Shown here: piece after piece, positions 1 to 20,712 of the stretch
How the letters are laid out: every line of letters starts with the position of its first letter
Numbering within the stretch: position 1 is the stretch's first letter
Virus record (IMG/VR): IMGVR_UViG_3300032282_004166
Coordinates: 1-21,801 of that record
Reading direction: 5' to 3' (one strand)
Source of the DNA: a virus
DNA length: 21,801 nt
Position numbers and translations under genes: made by a program
The notes under the pieces: model-generated
Told to the model about the DNA's origin: nothing
Seen by the model: only the letters and a program-made list of their open reading frames with translations
Databases searched by the model: none

Positions 1-380
1 CCAGAAGTGTTAGCGTAAAGTGCCCGATACCCCACGCCAACATTTTCGGCAGTGGTTGTTGAGTTAAGAGCTTCATATCCAATAGCAGTAGCACTACCTG
101 TATTGGTCTTTCCATAAACAGTACCCAATGCAGTAGGCGTAGCAGCAGAGCCACCACTTGCGGGTGTTGCCCATGTGGGAGCCGAGCCTGAACCCGCAGA
201 AGTCAATACTTGACCGTTTGTTCCAGTTGAATTGCCAGAACCTACACCCACAGCGCCAGAAGTATTGAGCGTGAGTGCAGTTGTGCCGTTGTTGACCTGC
301 AGCGCTAAAACACCAGAGGCATCGCCAGTCTGAATCAGGCCGCTAGTTGCCCCGTTACTTGCGTTGATTGTCGATGCCAT
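1..380 (-). CDS. Tail fibre-like protein, partial (3' end beyond window)
   Basis: The frame is open from an ATG at 380 to the left edge with no stop, giving 126 visible residues. The start has a good ribosome-binding site, AAGGA with a 6-base spacer, and that site contains the TAA stop of the preceding gene. The N-terminus (MASTINASNGATSGLIQTGD) resembles that of the 298-residue fibre at 2811-3707: each has a STGD/QTGD step, then LALQ/LVLQ, a TNGTT/NNGTT step and a VGVG step. From about residue 50 it matches the 626-residue fibre at 612-2492 (GTNGQVLTSAGS, APTW, ATPTALGTVYGK) and enters the same TAIGYEAL-type 17-residue repeats. It therefore looks like a hybrid of the two neighbouring fibre genes. 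I infer a receptor-binding or fibre role. Whether it also ends in an S74 chaperone cannot be seen. Confidence 0.8.
   Translation of the reverse strand, partial: MASTINASNGATSGLIQTGDASGVLALQVNNGTTALTLNTSGAVGVGSGNSTGTNGQVLTSAGSGSAPTWATPASGGSAATPTALGTVYGKTNTGSATAIGYEALNSTTTAENVGVGYRALYANTS
108..143. repeat. Direct repeat, copy 1 (pairs with 2295-2330)
   Basis: This 36-base stretch matches 2295-2330 at 35 positions, and the last 26 bases are identical. In both fibre genes it encodes the ATPTALGTVYGK linker just before the 17-residue repeats. It is long enough to support recombination between the two genes. The match was found by eye. Confidence 0.85.
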
Positions 381-389
381 AGTTGTTCC

Positions 390-602
390 TTATGCCGATG
401 CTGTACGCAGTGGTGTCAAGTCTTCGGTTGTCCAGAAGTCTTTAGCCAACATGATTTTCAAATGTTCTTTGTTGCGTGATAGGCAATCAGCCCAATCAGC
501 ATCAGTCATAAAATCTGGCTTCCCGCCATTGATTAGGTTGACGCTATCCATTGCGGCAGAGTAGTGTTGTGCAATTTGTGCGGGGGTTTGTGTATCAATC
601 AT
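390..602 (-). CDS. Small conserved phage protein between fibre genes (70 aa)
   Basis: The product is a soluble, mostly helical 70-residue protein (starts MIDTQTPAQIAQHYSAAMDS, then NKEHLKIMLAKDFWTTEDL). It has no signal peptide or membrane segment. From memory, similar short proteins lie beside fibre genes in environmental tailed phages, but I know of no assigned function. The start at 602 has AAAGGA with a 5-base spacer. The TAA of the fibre gene upstream is part of that site, so translation is probably coupled. Its own TAA overlaps the ribosome-binding site of the next fibre gene (380). A fibre-assembly helper is possible from position alone. Confidence 0.8.
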   Translation of the reverse strand: MIDTQTPAQIAQHYSAAMDSVNLINGGKPDFMTDADWADCLSRNKEHLKIMLAKDFWTTEDLTPLRTASA

Positions 603-611
603 AATTTTCCT

Positions 612-2492
612 TTAAAGGTTAGCGGCATCCAAACGTGCCTTGAGAGAATTGTTTTCGGCTTTAAGTTCTTTAATTGCGTTAATCATGTACCAAGTTAAGT
701 TATCTGCATCAACAGTCATCACGCCTGTGGATTCTGTCTTTACGCATTCAGGCAAAACAACTTGCAACTCTTGAGCAATTACGCCAAGTTGAACGCCTGA
801 TTTTTTAATTGCATCAGTTGGCTTGAGTTCTGCATCAACTTCTTCTGGCAAACGATACTCAAAGTTACGCACTTGAATGGCGTTAATTTTGTCTAAGCCA
901 ACATTATTGTCAATAATGTTCTTTTTAAGACGTTGGTCAGAAGTTTGTGACCAAGTAGATGAGTTGTTGCCTTGATAAACTCCACCACTTTGTGGATTTA
1001 TAAATCCAGTTGAATTGCCTTTGCTTATGCTATTTTGCCCAACAACAATTGCAAAAGTTTCTGCCGCTGATGCCGCGGCCGCATTAGTTCCAACATAAAT
1101 ATTGTTGTAGCCAGTTGTTATAGGCGTTGAATAGTTTCCAGCGTTATGACCAATAAAAGTATTAGAAGAACCAGTCGTTACAGCACGGCCAGCTTGGTCA
1201 CCAAAAGCAGAATTGGCCGAACCTGTAGTAAGAGCTAAAAATGTTAAATACCCACAGGCCGTAGTAGCATCTGCTGTCGTACTAACATAACTTGACGCAT
1301 ATCCTATGGCAGTATTGTTATTGGCAGTAGTATTACCCTGAAGCGCATAAGCACCTATTGCAACACTGCTAGTAGCTGTTGAATTCCTAAGAGTATCAAG
1401 ACCTATTGCTACATTGTAATTTCCTGTAGTGTTATTTAAAAGTGAGTCATGCCCAATGGAAATATTATGAGTGGCAGTCGTGCCGCTATTTCCTGCTCGA
1501 TAACCAACGGCTACATTACCGCTACCTGTGGTGTTGGAAAGTAAAGCCCTGTATCCAACGGCAGTAAGATTTCCTCCTGTAGTGTTAGCATTAAGTGCTT
1601 GCACCCCAAAAGCGACACTGGTTAATCCAGTTGTGTTATTTTGCAAAGAGCCATAGCCCGTGGCAGTGTTATTGTCACCCGTGGTATTTGAGTAAAGTGA
1701 TAATCCACCTACGGCAGTATTGGTTGCGCCAGTTGTGTTGGCTTGAAGAGCATAATGACCAGCGGCGGTATTGTTTGATGCCGTGGTGTTGGCAACAAGT
1801 GCGCCATAGCCAATTCCAACATTGTTAGTTCCCGTGGTCTGAAGTGCAAGCGCATATGCTCCAACACCTACATTATAATAGCCTGTAGTGGTAGCCCCTA
1901 ACGCATTAAAACCAACAGCAGTATTTTCAGTTCCCGTTGTATTTGCATCTAATGCTTGATAACCTATTGCAGTTCCACCAGATGCTGTGGTGTTTGCTCT
2001 CATTGCATAATGACCTACAGCAGTGTTTGACCCGCCAGAAGTCGTATTGAACAATGCAGAAGTGCCAACAGCAGTATTATAAGAAGAAGTTGCATAATAT
2101 AAAGAACTAGCACCAACAGCAACATTATCACTTCCAGTTACCACAGTAGAAAGAGTCTCATCACCTATGGCAGTATTTGATGCGCCAGAAGTTAATGAGG
2201 CAAGTGCTAACTGCCCAAATGCAGAATTATAATTACCCGTAACTGAAGAAGCGGCATTGTATCCAATAGCAGTTAAATATGCGCCTGTCGTTTGCTTTCC
2301 ATACACAGTACCCAATGCAGTAGGCGTAGCGGCGGACGGAGATGGTGAAGCTACCCATGTAGGAGCAGAAGCGCCATTGCTTTGCAGAATCTGACCAGAA
2401 GTACCAGCCGCTGTTGTGGCGTAGGTTGTCCCGTCACCGTATGTGACGCCGCCAGCCGTTGGCGTGTTGTTACCTGTGATCGTTACTGGCAT
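612..2492 (-). CDS. Tail fibre with 17-residue repeats and S74 self-cleaving chaperone (626 aa)
   Basis: This is a trimeric-fibre type protein. Residues 1-73 form a linker with a GTSGQILQSNGASAPTW segment. Residues about 74-490 are some 24 copies of a 17-residue unit of the form TAxGxxALxxNTTGxxN, like the beta-roll repeats of YadA-type adhesin heads. Residues about 517-626 match the peptidase S74 intramolecular chaperone of endosialidase: TSDQRLKKNI, then a GVIAQEL segment, a late DADNLTWYMINAIKEL segment and a terminal coiled coil. In that family cleavage is just before the Ser of SDxRLK, here Ser518, which would release a chaperone of about 109 residues after trimer folding. The start at 2492 has GGAG with a 6-base spacer. 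The protein probably binds the host surface. The chaperone call is firm; the receptor is unknown. Confidence 0.92.
   Translation of the reverse strand: MPVTITGNNTPTAGGVTYGDGTTYATTAAGTSGQILQSNGASAPTWVASPSPSAATPTALGTVYGKQTTGAYLTAIGYNAASSVTGNYNSAFGQLALASLTSGASNTAIGDETLSTVVTGSDNVAVGASSLYYATSSYNTAVGTSALFNTTSGGSNTAVGHYAMRANTTASGGTAIGYQALDANTTGTENTAVGFNALGATTTGYYNVGVGAYALALQTTGTNNVGIGYGALVANTTASNNTAAGHYALQANTTGATNTAVGGLSLYSNTTGDNNTATGYGSLQNNTTGLTSVAFGVQALNANTTGGNLTAVGYRALLSNTTGSGNVAVGYRAGNSGTTATHNISIGHDSLLNNTTGNYNVAIGLDTLRNSTATSSVAIGAYALQGNTTANNNTAIGYASSYVSTTADATTACGYLTFLALTTGSANSAFGDQAGRAVTTGSSNTFIGHNAGNYSTPITTGYNNIYVGTNAAAASAAETFAIVVGQNSISKGNSTGFINPQSGGVYQGNNSSTWSQTSDQRLKKNIIDNNVGLDKINAIQVRNFEYRLPEEVDAELKPTDAIKKSGVQLGVIAQELQVVLPECVKTESTGVMTVDADNLTWYMINAIKELKAENNSLKARLDAANL
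1023..2273 (-). repeat. Tandem array of about 24 units of 51 bases
   Basis: This is the DNA behind residues 74-490 of the S74 fibre. The unit is 51 bases (17 residues), with small indels giving 16-20 residues in a few units. Copies are diverged rather than identical, with conserved TA.G, AL and NTTG..N positions. Such arrays can change copy number by recombination and so change fibre length. Boundaries are approximate. Confidence 0.85.
2295..2330. repeat. Direct repeat, copy 2 (pairs with 108-143)
   Basis: This is the second copy of the 36-base near-identical repeat, again encoding ATPTALGTVYGK. The single mismatch to copy 1 is at 2304 against 117. Confidence 0.85.
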
Positions 2493-2504
2493 GATTTACT
2501 CCGT

Positions 2505-2762
2505 TTATATCCGAGCCGCTTGTGCCGCAGCCTGTGCCGCTTCATAAGCCGCAACCACTTCAGCAGTCCAAGCCGCATTGCAGATAGCCACAACATTAGC
2601 GGGAACGCCAGTTAAGTCTTGTGCGGGTGTAAGGCTTGAACGATGATAGGTTTGGCTGATTTGATTGCCATCTTCCATGATGCGTGTAGCTTCACGATAG
2701 AGAACTGTGCCGTTCTCTGTTACTGTAATTTGGTCAATGACCACTTGTTTTGTTAAAGACAT
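2505..2762 (-). CDS. Conserved hypothetical protein between fibre genes (85 aa)
   Basis: The first half looks beta-rich (VVIDQITVTENGTVLYREAT, then ISQTYHRSSL). The second half is an alanine-rich helix (AEVVAAYEAAQAAAQAARI). It has no signal peptide or membrane span. From memory, short proteins of this pattern often sit next to tail-fibre genes in uncultured aquatic phages; no function is known to me. The start at 2762 has AAGGA at a rather long spacer of about 9 bases. The stop lies 12 bases upstream of the S74 fibre start. A fibre-attachment or assembly role is only a guess from its neighbours. Confidence 0.75.
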   Translation of the reverse strand: MSLTKQVVIDQITVTENGTVLYREATRIMEDGNQISQTYHRSSLTPAQDLTGVPANVVAICNAAWTAEVVAAYEAAQAAAQAARI

Positions 2763-2810
2763 TTTAATTTCCTTTGGTTAAAGTCCGACCTGATAATCCA
2801 ATCAAGTTAA

Positions 2811-3707
2811 TTAAACATTGTATGAAGTCATAAAAGTAAAATTGGCAGTATTTGTAAATTGCGTCTCTGTCATGTAAGCGTCTGACATCCTAAAGTAAGC
2901 AAAAGTAGAAGACCCTTGTGGTACTGCTGATGCGTAATAAGTACCCGAAAGAGTAACATCAGTAAAGATAGAAAAAGCTGCTGCTGCATTAGACCCTGCT
3001 AAAAGTGTAAATGGAAACCCACTTAACTTAGCAATACCAGAGCCAGAGCCATTATTTGTAAAAGTAACTTGGCAACGCAAAGTAACTTGCCTACCTATTT
3101 TTTCGTATGTTCCAACTTGTGTTGAATAAGTAATCCCTGTCGTATCATTGCCAAATGACATTTCTGGTGTCCAAGTACCTTCTTCATAGTCGTCCAAAGT
3201 GTTAGCGTTTGTAGATGCTGATTGAGTTGCGGGGAATGTGATGCCTGTGCCTGTTTGAGGTGTTGCACCTTGAAGTGCAAGCGACTTATCTTTTTCAAGT
3301 GCTAACGCTTGAGTAAAAGTAATAGCATTTCCCGCTGTGCCTGATGCCGCTATATTGAATAGGAAACCATCTTGAAAGTTAATTGCACTTGCAATATCGC
3401 TAACATCATAAATGTAACTAGAAGTTGTTGTTGTAGACCTAAAGTTATAGCCAACTTGAGGATAACCACCACCAGAAATACCACCATATAAAGCCATCAA
3501 CTTAAATGACCTTGCGGCATTAGTTGCAAAATTTCCCGCCTGAAGCAAGAAGTTACCACTTGGAGTAACACCCACACCCACATTCTGTGATGTATCAATA
3601 GTGACGGCTGTTGTAGTCCCGTTGGTCTGAAGAACCAATGCGCCCGTTGTATCCCCTGTGCTAACCAGCGCAGTTGTCGTTGTTGTTCCTGCTGCAATCG
3701 TGCTCAT
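2811..3707 (-). CDS. Tail fibre-like protein (298 aa)
   Basis: The protein is Ser/Thr/Gly-rich and low in charge, as expected for a beta-structured fibre. Residues 1-50 (STIAAGTTTTTALVSTGD, then LVLQTNGTTTAVTIDTSQNV) are a module also present at the N-terminus of the fibre starting at 380. The middle contains DDYEEGTWTPEMSFG, a short motif that, from memory, marks the link between repeats and a C-terminal beta-sandwich in many phage fibres; it is followed by IGRQVTLRCQVTF. An in-frame GTG lies at 3719, but I chose ATG 3707: its ATGA overlaps the TGA of the preceding gene and a GGTGG ribosome-binding site sits just upstream. There is no S74 domain here. The protein is probably virion-attached and part of the receptor-recognition set. 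Confidence 0.8.
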   Translation of the reverse strand: MSTIAAGTTTTTALVSTGDTTGALVLQTNGTTTAVTIDTSQNVGVGVTPSGNFLLQAGNFATNAARSFKLMALYGGISGGGYPQVGYNFRSTTTTSSYIYDVSDIASAINFQDGFLFNIAASGTAGNAITFTQALALEKDKSLALQGATPQTGTGITFPATQSASTNANTLDDYEEGTWTPEMSFGNDTTGITYSTQVGTYEKIGRQVTLRCQVTFTNNGSGSGIAKLSGFPFTLLAGSNAAAAFSIFTDVTLSGTYYASAVPQGSSTFAYFRMSDAYMTETQFTNTANFTFMTSYNV

Positions 3708-4165
3708 ATAACCACCCACCTTTGACCGCTTGGTACTGTAAATGCCGACCCAGAACTGATTGTAATAGGCCCAACACTGAAACCATTCTTGCCGGGTGTC
3801 AGTGTATACGTGCCTGTAAATGTGGTGAAGTTCTCAGTGACCGCGCCAGCAGCCGCAAATGAAGACATCTCTGCTGGGTACGTTACAAATACGTCTTTAG
3901 TACCTGAACTAAAGTTGACTAGAGAACCTGAGTTGCTTGAAGAAAATACGGTTGTGCGGGCTAATGTTGTACCAGAAGATGTATACGTACCAATACCAAC
4001 TTCCCACTCAGTACCGGATTGAGCCGCAATTGTGTAGTAAGTTGTGTTGCCGTTGCCAACAGCAGCAAAAGATTGAAACCCCGTGGATGCGCCAAGCAGA
4101 GTCACTGTACCCGTACCAGTCGTGGTGGTGGTTTCTTTTACTCGGTCTGCTACAACAAAAGCCAT
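3704..4165 (-). CDS. Tail-associated structural protein (153 aa)
   Basis: The N-terminus, MAFVVADRVKETTTTTGTGT, followed by FQSFAAVGNGNTTYYTI, EWEVGIGTYTSSGTTLART and VFVTYPAE, is a pattern I recall from many tailed-phage structural proteins located just before fibre genes. The C-terminal VGPITISSGSAFTVPSGQRW is a segment often seen where a fibre attaches. No enzymatic motif is visible. The start at 4165 has AAGGA with a 7-base spacer that includes the TAA of the upstream gene. The last bases overlap the next fibre start (ATGA). A baseplate- or fibre-connecting role is inferred from position and composition. Confidence 0.82.
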   Translation of the reverse strand: MAFVVADRVKETTTTTGTGTVTLLGASTGFQSFAAVGNGNTTYYTIAAQSGTEWEVGIGTYTSSGTTLARTTVFSSSNSGSLVNFSSGTKDVFVTYPAEMSSFAAAGAVTENFTTFTGTYTLTPGKNGFSVGPITISSGSAFTVPSGQRWVVI

Positions 4166-4174
4166 ATTATGTCC

Positions 4175-5032
4175 TTACACAACCATCTCAACTTCAACCC
4201 AGTTAGGCGTCTGTGAGTCGTCTATATTTTGCCAAGCTGGTGTTTGTGAATTGGCTATATTTTGCCAGTTTGCAGTCTCGCTGTCATCTATTGTTGTCCA
4301 ATAAAAATAATTCACTGTCCCAACTTGACCCCTAGCCGAAACACCGGTCAATGCTACCACTCTATTAGAGCCAACTGATCCAACACTACCTATAGCCTGT
4401 ACGCCATCTTCGGTTGGATTATTTGTTTCTGTAACATCACCAACTGCGCCAGCCGCTTGAACACCAGTCAGGGCAACAAAACGTTCCCCCATCCCAACAG
4501 TACCAACGCTACCAATAGCTACAACACCCGTTTCGGTTGGATTATTAGTTTCAACAACATCACCAACCGCGCCAGTGGCACTTACACCCGTCAGTGCAAT
4601 ATTTCTTGCAGCAACTGATACTGTACCAACCGAACCTGTTGCGCTTACTCCAGTTAATGCTTTGGTGATTGTGCCAACAACCGTACCAACTGCGCCAACG
4701 GCGCTAACTCCTGTAAGCGCAATACTTCTTTCTGCAACAGCCACCGTGCCAACTGCACCCGATGCTTGAACTCCTGTAAGCGCCTGTGATTCTGAACTTA
4801 CTACTGTACCGACTGCTCCAGAAGCTGCAACCCCAGTTAACGCAATACTTCTTTCTGCAACTGCTACTGTACCAACTGCCCCAGCGGCTGAAACTCCAGT
4901 AAGTGCTGGAGCTATCACACCCGTTACTGTACCTACCGCGCCAGATGCCTGAACGCCGGTAAGAGAAACTACTACCGTTTGCCCCGCAAGCGAGGCGAAT
5001 GGCGCTTCGGCAAAGGCGGAGATACCAAACAT
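4175..5032 (-). CDS. Repeat-rich fibre-like protein (285 aa)
   Basis: The N-terminus (MFGISAFAEAPFASLA) resembles a start I recall in other phage structural proteins. Residues 24-240 are eleven copies of a 20-21-residue unit of the form LTGVxAxGAVGTVxVAxxxxA, rich in Gly, Val and Ala and likely beta-structured. Residues 247-281 are three copies of an 11-residue unit (IDDSQTPNWQN-like, with an invariant Trp), probably a different fold at the tip or a docking tail. Two adjacent repeats (the ETNNPTE-bearing pair) are themselves duplicated. The start has only a weak GGA at a 7-base spacer. It lies between two beta-structured virion proteins and the tail-associated 153-residue protein. I infer a tail spike, fibre or whisker component. 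Confidence 0.8.
   Translation of the reverse strand: MFGISAFAEAPFASLAGQTVVVSLTGVQASGAVGTVTGVIAPALTGVSAAGAVGTVAVAERSIALTGVAASGAVGTVVSSESQALTGVQASGAVGTVAVAERSIALTGVSAVGAVGTVVGTITKALTGVSATGSVGTVSVAARNIALTGVSATGAVGDVVETNNPTETGVVAIGSVGTVGMGERFVALTGVQAAGAVGDVTETNNPTEDGVQAIGSVGSVGSNRVVALTGVSARGQVGTVNYFYWTTIDDSETANWQNIANSQTPAWQNIDDSQTPNWVEVEMVV
4190..4294 (-). repeat. Three 33-base repeats encoding a Trp-containing 11-mer
   Basis: The units encode IDDSETANWQN, IANSQTPAWQN and IDDSQTPNWVE at the C-terminus of the repeat-rich protein. Trp is conserved in all three. Boundaries are approximate. Confidence 0.8.
4313..4963 (-). repeat. Eleven tandem repeats of 60-63 bases
   Basis: The array encodes eleven LTGVxAxGAVGTV units of the fibre-like protein. 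Some neighbouring units share long nucleotide identity, for example the AVAERSIA-encoding stretches near 4719-4746 and 4840-4867. This points to recent internal duplication. Confidence 0.85.
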
Positions 5033-16449: not shown

Positions 16450-19400
16450 TTACAGATATCTGCGGTTATCGTCGTTTTTGCGTTCAACCATTCCACCCTT
16501 TTTGAATGGAATGCCTTTCTCCAATGTCTTGGCTGCAGTCTCTGGTGACCACACCACGCCCCAAACAGTTGGCTCCGTTCCACCGGGATTTGGCAGTGTA
16601 ATGGGTTTAATGTCGAATCCTGCTTTCTCGCCACCTAAATCTTTTACGGCCTGCTTTAAGTTTGGCAGAACTTTCTCATACAACGCTGGTCTGGCGGACT
16701 CCTTACCGGGGAAGGTTACAAAGTCTTGGCCTGCACGCATTGTGGACTGAATTGCGTTTTTCATCAACAACTGCATTTCTACAGAAGGGCTTGTCTCAAA
16801 GCCCGCAAACGGTTGATCTAAAAAGTACTTGCCCGGAGCAGTAACTGTTATCCGTCTCTCTAAGGTATCTTTCCGTTGGTCTAGTTTTGCTTTTTCTAAT
16901 GCCTGTGACGGATCAAGCTCGTCAATGCCTGCAAGTTTGCTCTTTAACGTTGCTAACTCTTCACGATCTTTTTCCAAAGATCGATTTCTAGGACCAAGCT
17001 GCTTGACATCTTGCGCAAGGTCAGACTGCAACTCATGCACGTGACGGCCATTTAACTGTTTGCCGTTCATGTCCACTGCATGTTCTGTGTAGCGAGAGAA
17101 TCCAATTGGATTAATTTCTTTGTTGGTCACGCTTTCATGCTGGCCTTTGTAGCCGGTGTAGGGGCGCAAATCGTCATATACCTTGTCGTAAACGGTGTGA
17201 ATGTTTTTCCTGACTTGTTTCATAGCGGCATCAATCCCTTGACTAATAGGGGTTGCGCTATTTTTTAATTGTTCTTTTAATATATCGTCGCTTCCACCCG
17301 CTAAATTTGGGCTTGGGTTGTTTGCGTGTCGTTGCACAAACGACGCTACATCAACTGGGTCTCCCCCCATTGCAACCAATCTGTCAGAACCTTTTTGCAT
17401 TAACTCTTCTACAAGCTTTAATTCTTGTTGTCTTTGTAACGGATAAAAGGAAGTAGACCTTTCAACTGGCGTCATGCCTTCCATCAAAGGCTTCATACGA
17501 TTGGCAATTTCTTTATGGAAATTAAATCCATTTTCACTGTAAAGTAGTGGATATTGAATCATGTACTCGGCATGACCTAATTCATTTTGCATTTTGCCAA
17601 ACTTTGTGTACGCAGGCAACGCGGCTTCCATTCTGTCTATTAAGGTATTTATTTCAGGAACTTTGGCAGTAAGCGGATTGTTCCTTAAAGACTCAACGGC
17701 AAGGTTAATATCTTCAGGCTGGCGGCCATACAAAACTTTTTCTGCCGCTTTTTTAACTGAAAGATAATTATCATAAAGGGCCGCTGTCTCAGGAGTCTCC
17801 TTTAAATACAAATTCATTGACCCAACAATAGATTTGTTTCCTGTAAAAATGTTGTCATGTGCGTTGTACATTCCACCAGTCCCGGCAGGAACATCCACAG
17901 ACCTAAACCTGCTTGGTGAATACGTATTAGCCAACGATTCTTGCAACAGGGCCGGCGTTACCTTGTCTTTTGGACCCAATCCAGACAGCGCTTCTTCAAG
18001 GCGCGCTACATCATGCTCACGGAATTTGCCCTTGACCTGATTGATCAACTGCTCCTTCTGTGCAGGGCCTTTCATTCCTGCAGCAAACTCATCCAAGCGA
18101 CCAACAAATGGAAACTCTGCACTAATTTGCACTGGTGGGGCAACCATAGCAGGTGGTTCCGGTGCTACCGCTGGTGTAGGGTTTTGACGCCTGATTGCAA
18201 CGGGACGCGGACGAGCCGCAGTTTCTTGGAACAAGCGTAACTGCTCTTGCGCATCCGCCGGCAATCTAGCAATGTTTTGTTCTGCTTGAAGTAGCTCAGG
18301 CCTTGGAGCAAGAGATTGCGGCAGTCTTCCTGCGGCTACGTCTGCTGCAATCTGTCGTTGATTAACACCTTCAATGTTATCAAACACAGCATTGATAGCG
18401 CGCTGCTCGGCTTCTTCTTGCGCAACCGTTCTTGTTGGCGCTTCAAATCTTTGACCCGTCATTAAGTCGGTCATCCCGGGTCTCTCGGATTTGTATCCTG
18501 CCTTAAAGCCAGCTAACGCATCCGCTGCTGCGCCCTTCAAAGCCTGCGCACCTTGAATGATCTTGCCGGGAGCCAACATCCCCGCACCAAACTCACCAAG
18601 GTGATGAAACCCCTTGAGTGTCGGATCTTCGGGCGTGGGCCTGCGAATGCCCACATCCGTAGCTTTTTCTTTTAAATATTCGCTACCCAAAAAAGGTTTT
18701 TGATTACTGTAACCAAATGGCCTCATCACCATGGTTGTCAAATCAACAGGCAAGCCCGCAAGATCGTAAGGCACGTCTGCTGTGCCTTGAGCCATGGCTG
18801 GATATGCTGTTCCGCTGTTCAAAGCACTGGATATATTCCCAGCTTTGCGACCAATACCGGACTTTTGGGCAATAAAAGCAGGGGTGTTACTCTCCATTGC
18901 CAAACGTTCAATCTGTTGCGGAGTCAAACGCTCACCCTCTTCCGGACTGCCGTCTGCACGATTGACAGGAATACGAATATTAACTTCTGGGCCCTTACTG
19001 CCTATGTAAGCCCTGCCCAATTCACCCGCCAAATCACGTGGGCTAAAACCACCTTTGACAAACTCCGTCAAAGCATTCTTGGCAGACTTTACAAACTTCT
19101 CGCCACTGCCCATCTTCTCGTACTCCGCGACCCGCGGTCCGTGGAAATCGTACCTGTCTGAAATGACAGTGCTGCCATCCGGCATTTGCTTGTACTGAAA
19201 ACCACCCAACGTATTCCTAATGTCCACGTACCCCGGACCGATCTCATTGCCTGTTGGGTAGTCCTGATAATCTACACGGCCATTACCGCCTCTCGCCTGA
19301 CTTTTTTTTACCGCATCCATCATGGCCATCTGTTCCTTGGCCGTGAAGTCTTTTCCAGTAATAGGCTCGCGCCGGCCCGTCATGACATCTACAAAAGTTC

Positions 19401-20712
19401 TTGACGCAGCATCAAAAAATGGCTCGTCTTGCCTTACTTCACCACCGTCCGCGAACCGCTTGCTATATTGCAAATTCAACTGGGGCGAACCCATTGTTCC
19501 ACGTGGAACATTTAAGTTTGCATTGAACTGACCACCCTCAACAGGGCGCTCATATCCCAACGAATACGCCTGATTACCATGCATGCCGGCCGATACACGG
19601 CCTTCCCCAACAGGAAGTGATCCAATAAGATTAGCCATGGCCGGAGCGCCTTGGGGCTTGACAACATTTGCAGTAAACCCCAATCCTTCAGGGTCCTGTT
19701 GCGTATACGCCAACATCAAAGCACGCGCCGTCTGCAGTTTCTCATCCTTGCTCATGTTGGCCATGTTCAAACCAGCCATGACAGAGCCCTCACCAGCCTT
19801 GGTCCGCGCGCCAAGCATCACGGAATCCGTCGTAACTCCGCGGTCCTTCATCCGATTCACATTGCTAAAGTACTTGATGTCGTCAGGGCGCTTTTCCTCC
19901 GCATCAACTTCTCCACCATCAGCCATCATGACAGGCGTAACACCTAGATCAAGGGAAGCCAAATGATTAACAGGCTTGTAATCCCGCATCAACTTTTCTG
20001 ACTCGGTTTCCTTGTTCTCGTTATAAACCCTGTCATCCTCTTCGTCCTGCGCATCAGCCAAAGCCGCTAAAGCAAAAGCGGCCTGATAACTGGCGGGCAT
20101 GCTCTTGACATCAGGCATACCCTTCATCATTGTTCCACGTGAAACACTGGCAGTTGTTCCGGCAGGAAGGGCCTTGGTCATGATCTCCTCGGCAGGAGTA
20201 GGTTCGGTCTTGGCTTGCTTTGTTTCACGTGAAACATTGGATGCCGGAATCTTTAACTTGCCCTCAAGCTGCGCCAATACTTGACCCGCCGTTTTACCCT
20301 GCAAATTAGGATTGGCCGCCAAGACCTTTTCCGAAAACAATTGTTTTGCCGGGGTATCAGGCGCTGCAGTCAAAAACTTCTGCGCTCCCGTTGCGCCAAA
20401 ATAATGCGCCGCATACACTTCCTTGGGGCTCGGATCACGGCCAAGGAATCCCTTTAAACTCTGCACATTCTTGGAAATAATATCCGTGCCCACACGAATA
20501 TTTTCATCCGGATCAAACTGCTTGCCGGGCGCTCCCTTGTTCCCGGACCACGTATTATTCAATATCTGAAACAGGCCCGCTGCCGTGGAACTCTTCGCCT
20601 TAGCATTTGGATCAAAACCACTCTCCGCCCTCGCAATACTCACCGCAACTTCAGGATCTACACCCTTTGCCTGAGCAGCAGCACGTATCTTTTCAATTAA
20701 ATCTTGGGCCAT
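16450..20712 (-). CDS. Giant virion protein: lytic transglycosylase plus polyvalent-type domains (1420 aa)
   Basis: Residues about 5-120 are an SLT lytic transglycosylase: catalytic Glu30 in IARAESGFDP, then SSTAAGLFQI, and a C-terminal VYAAHYFGATGAQKF. Residues about 280-425 are Gly-rich short strands (SVMAGLNMAN, VSAGMHGNQAYSLGYERP, LNLQYSKRF). Residues about 480-750 and 750-1200 are mixed helical, with ADVPYDLAGLPVDLTTMVMR. The end (about 1180-1390) holds GRHVHELQSDLAQ (near 1225), like the E(L/I)QSD module of phage large polyvalent proteins. ADGGEV occurs near 263 and 420, and FKKGGMVER at the end. A role as an internal virion protein ejected to cut peptidoglycan during DNA entry is inferred. 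Its position between terminase and portal is unusual. Three parS-like sites lie inside it. Confidence 0.85.
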   Translation of the reverse strand: MAQDLIEKIRAAAQAKGVDPEVAVSIARAESGFDPNAKAKSSTAAGLFQILNNTWSGNKGAPGKQFDPDENIRVGTDIISKNVQSLKGFLGRDPSPKEVYAAHYFGATGAQKFLTAAPDTPAKQLFSEKVLAANPNLQGKTAGQVLAQLEGKLKIPASNVSRETKQAKTEPTPAEEIMTKALPAGTTASVSRGTMMKGMPDVKSMPASYQAAFALAALADAQDEEDDRVYNENKETESEKLMRDYKPVNHLASLDLGVTPVMMADGGEVDAEEKRPDDIKYFSNVNRMKDRGVTTDSVMLGARTKAGEGSVMAGLNMANMSKDEKLQTARALMLAYTQQDPEGLGFTANVVKPQGAPAMANLIGSLPVGEGRVSAGMHGNQAYSLGYERPVEGGQFNANLNVPRGTMGSPQLNLQYSKRFADGGEVRQDEPFFDAASRTFVDVMTGRREPITGKDFTAKEQMAMMDAVKKSQARGGNGRVDYQDYPTGNEIGPGYVDIRNTLGGFQYKQMPDGSTVISDRYDFHGPRVAEYEKMGSGEKFVKSAKNALTEFVKGGFSPRDLAGELGRAYIGSKGPEVNIRIPVNRADGSPEEGERLTPQQIERLAMESNTPAFIAQKSGIGRKAGNISSALNSGTAYPAMAQGTADVPYDLAGLPVDLTTMVMRPFGYSNQKPFLGSEYLKEKATDVGIRRPTPEDPTLKGFHHLGEFGAGMLAPGKIIQGAQALKGAAADALAGFKAGYKSERPGMTDLMTGQRFEAPTRTVAQEEAEQRAINAVFDNIEGVNQRQIAADVAAGRLPQSLAPRPELLQAEQNIARLPADAQEQLRLFQETAARPRPVAIRRQNPTPAVAPEPPAMVAPPVQISAEFPFVGRLDEFAAGMKGPAQKEQLINQVKGKFREHDVARLEEALSGLGPKDKVTPALLQESLANTYSPSRFRSVDVPAGTGGMYNAHDNIFTGNKSIVGSMNLYLKETPETAALYDNYLSVKKAAEKVLYGRQPEDINLAVESLRNNPLTAKVPEINTLIDRMEAALPAYTKFGKMQNELGHAEYMIQYPLLYSENGFNFHKEIANRMKPLMEGMTPVERSTSFYPLQRQQELKLVEELMQKGSDRLVAMGGDPVDVASFVQRHANNPSPNLAGGSDDILKEQLKNSATPISQGIDAAMKQVRKNIHTVYDKVYDDLRPYTGYKGQHESVTNKEINPIGFSRYTEHAVDMNGKQLNGRHVHELQSDLAQDVKQLGPRNRSLEKDREELATLKSKLAGIDELDPSQALEKAKLDQRKDTLERRITVTAPGKYFLDQPFAGFETSPSVEMQLLMKNAIQSTMRAGQDFVTFPGKESARPALYEKVLPNLKQAVKDLGGEKAGFDIKPITLPNPGGTEPTVWGVVWSPETAAKTLEKGIPFKKGGMVERKNDDNRRYL
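19302..19309 (-). other. A8 slippery run (A AAA AAA) in the transglycosylase gene
   Basis: On the coding strand the codons are GTA AAA AAA AGT (residues 468-471), a classic slippery heptamer. A -1 slip would add six codons and stop at TAA, giving a product of about 476 residues that keeps the transglycosylase and beta-strand region. No stimulatory structure was established, so this is only a candidate site. Confidence 0.35.
19495..19510. other. parS-like palindrome, site 3 (TGTTCCACGTGGAACA)
   Basis: This is a perfect 16-base palindrome. It equals the ParB-site consensus TGTTNCACGTGAAACA except for one A to G change that restores symmetry. It encodes NVPRGT at about residues 400-406 of the transglycosylase protein. 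Confidence 0.7.
20131..20146. other. parS-like site 2 (TGTTCCACGTGAAACA)
   Basis: This is an exact match to the bacterial chromosomal parS consensus TGTTNCACGTGAAACA. It lies 90 bases from site 1 and 636 bases from site 3 (start to start). It encodes VSRGT at about residues 189-194. Confidence 0.8.
20221..20236. other. parS-like palindrome, site 1 (TGTTTCACGTGAAACA)
   Basis: This is a perfect palindrome and an exact match to the consensus parS bound by ParB/Spo0J proteins. It encodes NVSRETK at about residues 158-164 of the transglycosylase protein. No ParA or ParB gene is visible in the window. Confidence 0.82.

Follow-up and report, generated by a model that had tools for sequence, protein, structure and literature searches.

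A DNA-conserved linker as a probable recombination seam in the tail fibre genes of environmental phages

Introduction

Fibre mosaicism is general among phages (PMC10684548). T-even phages swap parts of their adhesins between conserved motifs (Tetart 1998, as cited in excerpts of PMC7468147). In P2, P1, Mu and lambda, tail fibre genes are common to unrelated phages, and crossover sites linked to invertases have been described (Haggard-Ljungquist 1992, Sandmeier 1992/1994, as cited in excerpts of PMC3945230); the citing study, on temperate phages, attributes the formation of mosaics to Rad52-like phage recombinases acting by relaxed homologous recombination. The pan-genomes of cryoconite phages contain exchangeable host-recognition genes (Bellas 2020, excerpts of PMC7468147).

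The joints within fibre genes usually show up merely as points at which two sequences cease to be alike. In this work we describe a joint which can be named base by base and counted in public data. It was found in one linear IMG/VR contig of 21,801 bases, the whole of which is the stretch of DNA analysed here and is referred to as the window. An earlier note, made from the letters of the window alone, had pointed to a near-identical repeat in its fibre genes and proposed a host-range module that duplicates and shuffles.

Results

Three fibre genes and a repeat at the left edge of the window

The minus strand of the window encodes a large terminase (PF17289 in a profile search of the window), a portal and a capsid protein. 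Small tail genes come next, followed toward the left edge by three fibre genes (Table 1). That edge is the contig end and lies within repeat-coding DNA. Among phage records the terminase matched Phage DSL-LC04 best (65%), followed by phage 023Pt_psg01 and Pelagibacter phage HTVC027P (57%). The gene between those for the terminase and the portal (16450-20712, minus strand) encodes 1420 residues and has an SLT transglycosylase domain at the N-terminus of its product. A protein of short repeats (ALTGVxASGAVGTV...) is encoded at 4175-5032 on the minus strand, with DNA repeats of period 63/123; its length is 285 residues in the window and 375, 373 and 332 in homologues from loci L103, L104 and L090, so the number of repeats seems to vary.

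Table 1. Features of the fibre locus at the left end of the window
Feature	Position	Strand	Basis
5' part of third fibre gene: module A' (residues 1-79), linker, first YadA-head-like repeats, truncated at contig end	3..380	-	open ORF
Seam copy 1, GCTACGCCTACTGCATTGGGTACTGTTTATGG, encodes ATPTALGTVYG	112..143	-	pairwise match and peptide search
70-residue gene g70, fibre companion, predicted three-helix protein	390..602	-	homologues behind linker fibres, alignment, structure model
626-residue fibre: module B (residues 1-48), linker, YadA-head-like repeats, C-terminal S74 chaperone	612..2492	-	Pfam PF13884
Seam copy 2, GCTACGCCTACTGCATTGGGTACTGTGTATGG, encodes ATPTALGTVYG; commonest form among copies	2299..2330	-	pairwise match and copy counts
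85-residue gene, PHROG 6228	2505..2762	-	phrog_6228, E 4.6e-20
298-residue fibre with N-terminal module A, without linker copy	2811..3707	-	phrog_17970, E 1e-14

The earlier description of these fibres was borne out. The 36-base stretches at 108-143 and 2295-2330 are identical at 35 of 36 positions; they lie in direct orientation with a spacing of 2187 nt, and a longer alignment of the two covers 53 nt with 85% identity. The truncated fibre had been said to combine an N-terminus like that of the 2811-3707 fibre with a second half like that of the S74 fibre, and both resemblances were recovered (37% over ~100 residues, E 3e-9, and 59% over 68 residues, E 1e-13, respectively), the latter match running from GQxLxSxGxxAPTW via the linker into the repeats. 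The assignment of S74 to the 612-2492 fibre also holds (PF13884, residues 518-585, E 3.3e-11), the domain scoring 43.7 bits against a curated cut-off of 22. The phage records closest to this fibre align mainly from residue 68 onward, directly past the linker; a sequence comparison of the fibre with the PDB gave no match at E 0.01. The fibre repeats carry NTAxGxxAL motifs, which we take to be YadA-head-like (the name is our own), and their PHROG matches are tail or virion proteins. We infer a role in host range solely from the class of these proteins.

The linker peptide is widespread among uncultured phages

We searched IMG/VR with a pattern which fixed the peptide ATPTALGTVYG and left its synonymous bases free, and which was thus blind to codon choice. 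The peptide was present in at least 100 stretches, at the same place in tail-fibre genes that are otherwise unlike, and all linker sequences compared here come from metagenome assemblies. None of 84,980 species genomes of bacteria and archaea contained the pattern. A DNA search for the seam in 50,697 phage records returned one weak partial match only, a protein search of phage records with the linker and downstream part returned no match, and the peptide was not found in the text of the open-access papers searched.

When an 18-base piece of the seam was searched for with no frame imposed, it occurred in 65 stretches, comprising 60 that were already known and five that were new. Four of the five encode close variants of the linker; in L264 the word falls on a different peptide of a repeat protein, which looks like chance. 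Similarity to the terminase of the window was detected in 3 of 28 linker contigs, many of them partial, at 31-53% identity. Four linker-like copies in L063 (G015) and three in L077 (G016) are divergent in their DNA, and these two records may not belong to the main pool of exchanging phages.

Similarity between contigs ends at the linker in both directions

We collapsed alleles and extended matches between loci without gaps, a procedure in which indels can mimic breaks. Of 85 pairs (43 loci) sharing at least 100 nt upstream of the linker, 68 lost the match no more than 10 nt past it; where at least 100 nt were shared downstream, the upstream match was lost within 32 nt in 35/35 pairs. We also ran a gapped check with control anchors, in which pairs were not collapsed for relatedness, and here 69% of pairs sharing one or both sides broke at the linker, in both directions. 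Control anchors inside conserved domains broke in 1% (GVIAQE) and 9% (TLTAGxxxTITN) of cases. Breaks also occurred at other module edges, namely the S74 start (28%), LPVANGGTG (51%) and the first head repeat (48%), and the linker is thus the sharpest boundary and not the sole one. In one such pair, L007 and L064, a 3.9-kb block of 94% identity finishes at the final base of the linker. In another, L016 and L027, identity is 90.5% until shortly beyond the linker; the repeats are then unlike, and similarity returns ~10 nt after the fibre stop.

Breakpoints therefore lie at the motif from both sides, as in a homologous-recombination seam. The shuffling put forward in the earlier note stands with respect to the linker, as relatives showed the opposite of the purely vertical divergence that would have spoken against it. 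Its duplication does not: both flanks of the two copies differ, and no fewer than 100 further stretches contain this DNA. We therefore reject a private duplication within this genome as the origin of the repeat and consider it more likely that each copy came from a shared pool.

Breaks of this kind could conceivably be produced during assembly, if unrelated contigs were joined at a common short word. In favour of this, the data are all metagenome contigs, and the seam is a word that occurs repeatedly, with one copy close to the end of the window. However, a shared word must pre-exist for such joining to occur, its 42 nt are shorter than a typical short read, and the same junctions recur under different sample numbers (L010/L036, L016/L030, L009/L031, L017/L100 and L024/L047). 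We consider chimeras of this origin extremely unlikely.

The fibres of the window have different partners on either side of the linker

The best comparator for the window was L090 (86.5% identity over window positions 3605-4575). A comparison of fibre order with relatives had been suggested from the start, and in L090 the N-terminal modules were found in the same order, with the S74 part and g70 behind a different module. L090 has a module A fibre, a 102-residue gene, a module B fibre with another ending, and then module A' with linker, repeats and S74, followed by g70. The window has a module A fibre, the 85-residue gene, module B with linker, repeats and S74, then g70, and finally module A' with linker and repeats, where it is cut.

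Gene by gene, the 2811-3707 fibre is 97% identical to L090 over its first 103 nt and then unlike it until a common LDDYEEGTW motif, and module B of the 612-2492 fibre is 96.5% identical over 144 nt to the differently ended gene in L090. The upstream part of the fragment at 3-380 is 85% identical to L090 over 158 nt, with background identity (50%) to L097; for its downstream part, of which 111 nt are available, identity is 93% with L097 and 89-90% with L050. In L090 an N-terminus of this type is followed by S74, which suggests that the complete gene of the fragment may have S74 too. L103 and L104, which are close relatives by their tail gene, have similar neighbouring genes and other fibres without the linker, so they only show fibre turnover. 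The 85-residue gene recurs at 84-91% DNA identity in many other fibre loci (e.g. L246, L088 and L102) and may be another mobile companion between such loci.

Linker DNA is conserved beyond codon usage

The commonest 32-mer was found in 45 of 107 linker copies. We reduced these to 58 copies so that neither flank is shared, and redrew codons from each gene's own codon usage as a null model. An identical 32-mer was present in 20 of the 58 copies, the largest identical class, compared with a null maximum of 2. Codon agreement per pair in the same set was 6.50/10, against 3.30 (sd 0.10) expected, and rare codons were kept (ACG, 0.72 against 0.11 expected; GTG, 0.79 against 0.11 expected). The same-codon excess was 0.27-0.35 across codons -4 to +10 around ATPTALGTVYG (~42 nt) and 0.02-0.10 in the flanking blocks. 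It was 0.083 in the S74 domain, 0.207 in g70 and 0.07-0.14 in other conserved peptides of the same genes, with the exceptions of TSDQRLKKN (0.23) and SDQRLKKNI (0.19). Codon bias as a cause of linker uniformity is ruled out by the own-gene codon null, and general DNA conservation of these genes by the control peptides and the S74 domain. The motif is thus conserved as DNA beyond the constraint on its protein, and with this held far beyond codon usage in 107 copies, the repeat in the window is not a product of chance.

The peptide at the S74 start, TSDQRLKKN (loci L003-L102), had the highest synonymous excess beyond the linker, and 28% of pairs break just before it. From these alignments, the S74 start is a possible second, weaker seam. 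Seams of the majority form had one-sided partners more often than other copies (64/80 v 16/27, P = 0.04), a difference confounded by relatedness.

Recency might account for such uniformity, if one successful fibre cassette had lately passed through a pool of related phages by ordinary, non-localised recombination and the linker protein simply tolerated no change. Many copies differ by just 0-2 bases, the entire fibre locus is mosaic and g70 also has some synonymous excess, as would fit a recent spread. Yet the flanks of identical linkers are mutually unlike while the synonymous sites of the linker are kept, and S74 peptides conserved as protein do not keep their codons, which makes a recent spread distinctly unlikely. 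We also consider it unlikely that the linker DNA is kept for a function at the transcript level (codon-timed pausing, an internal start or RNA structure), with exchange merely coinciding at a domain boundary. Pausing would be natural at such a boundary, and two of the conserved codons, ACG and GTG, are rare in these genes. However, common codons are conserved as well as rare ones, no RNA structure was found (z +0.5 to +1.5), GTG is not universal, copy 1 of the window having GTT, and conservation ends where DNA similarity breaks.

Recombination functions in the linker contigs

The seam could instead be the target of a site-specific recombinase, as in Mu, P1 and p15B, whose invertase systems act on tail fibres and have crossover sites within fibre genes that recur in unrelated phages. 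Such systems look alike in having short conserved DNA in fibre genes with variable 3' parts (Sandmeier, as cited in excerpts of PMC3945230). The dyad symmetry of the seam was no better than that of shuffled sequences, however, and where one record holds several linker copies these are always direct and never inverted. Profile searches in which controls were detected found the resolvase/invertase family PF00239 in 0 of 26 linker contigs and no tyrosine recombinase (PF00589) in the same 26, many of which are partial. Thus, the serine recombinase of a Gin/Cin/Min-type invertase switch was not found in these contigs, nor were inverted crossover sites with a dyad found among the linker copies, and we regard a site-specific target as very unlikely. 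ERF-type annealing proteins were encoded in 5/26 linker contigs and YqaJ in 2/26, counts which are suggestive only; the profile search of the linker contigs found no RecT-type recombinases, and no recombinase was identified within the window.

g70 as a candidate right-hand anchor

A homologue of g70 lies immediately behind 65 of the 97 complete linker fibres, at -9 to +18 nt from the stop. Of 132 informative swapped pairs, 77 regain DNA similarity once the fibre has ended. These figures, together with a codon excess in g70 above that of the S74 domain (0.207 v 0.083), make g70 a candidate for the right-hand anchor of many swaps, where it may form a looser, softer edge than the linker. The structure model of g70 has three helices (pLDDT 92.8), and a fold search of the PDB with it returned nothing significant. 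Our guess would be that g70 helps in fibre assembly.

Discussion

We consider it probable, at roughly 0.72, that the repeat in the window is a copy of a ~42-nt recombination seam, conserved as DNA, at which an N-terminal module for attachment meets a receptor-binding part that can be exchanged. Comparison of contigs showed that seam DNA is shared beyond codon usage and that similarity stops there from either side, and exchange of modules at the seam is strongly supported by these sequence comparisons. The reason why the seam is conserved as DNA we infer from the same patterns.

The exchangeable receptor-binding part would consist of the YadA-head-like repeats, usually with an S74 chaperone. 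With two phages in one cell, identical seams would recombine by strand annealing or RecA-type recombination, catalysed by phage annealing proteins (ERF type) or host RecA, and would thereby couple the N-terminal module of one phage in frame to the receptor-binding part of the other. The cassette swap would then be completed by another exchange on the right-hand side, in many cases at g70 behind the fibre. Copies with the majority sequence would recombine more and travel with new host-range variants, so that the DNA would stay uniform; uniformity would be maintained because only matching copies exchange well. In this genome, recombination between the two direct copies, which are 2.2 kb apart, might also remove the S74 fibre and g70 or give them new partners; no deletion between the copies was observed.

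A broader and more tentative reading, to which we give somewhat less than even odds, is that one short DNA sequence, kept uniform through its use in recombination rather than by its protein, couples fibre halves across a diverse pool of environmental phages. If this were true, any N-terminal anchor could acquire any receptor-binding part in frame. A seam that keeps its synonymous sites makes it testable whether phages retain short homology for the sake of exchange. As a single sequence tag, it could also be used to track fibre trading in uncultured phages and to assign fibre halves to lineages. In the open-access literature we found no description of one and the same joint that many environmental phages retain at the DNA level, although an existing account may have been missed.

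Several described systems resemble this one in part. Cryoconite phages, like the linker phages, are environmental and have a constant core with tail-fibre variants swapped by recombination; variable islands are described for them, and no shared DNA joint is named in the excerpts of PMC7468147 that bear on them. The 612-2492 fibre is like the fibres with an S74 (endosialidase-type) intramolecular chaperone in having a C-terminal S74 domain by Pfam; the seam itself does not belong to that family. The fibres of P2, P1, Mu and lambda, like the linker fibres, are mosaic genes with joints inside the gene and are shared across phage types. Unlike the invertase systems of P1 and Mu, the linker had no inverted copies and no dyad, and no invertase was found in 26 linker contigs, many of them partial. 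The proposed exchange would work like adhesin swapping of the T4 type, in which short conserved motifs in or beside the adhesin gene likewise provide the homology for exchanging a hypervariable part. The motifs in T4-type swaps are glycine-rich and lie inside the adhesin of one phage group. Unlike that single group, most linker contigs lacked a match to the terminase of the window (3 of 28 had one, and many contigs are partial), and in place of such motifs there is here one ~42-nt linker, conserved as DNA, between the N-terminal module and the repeats.
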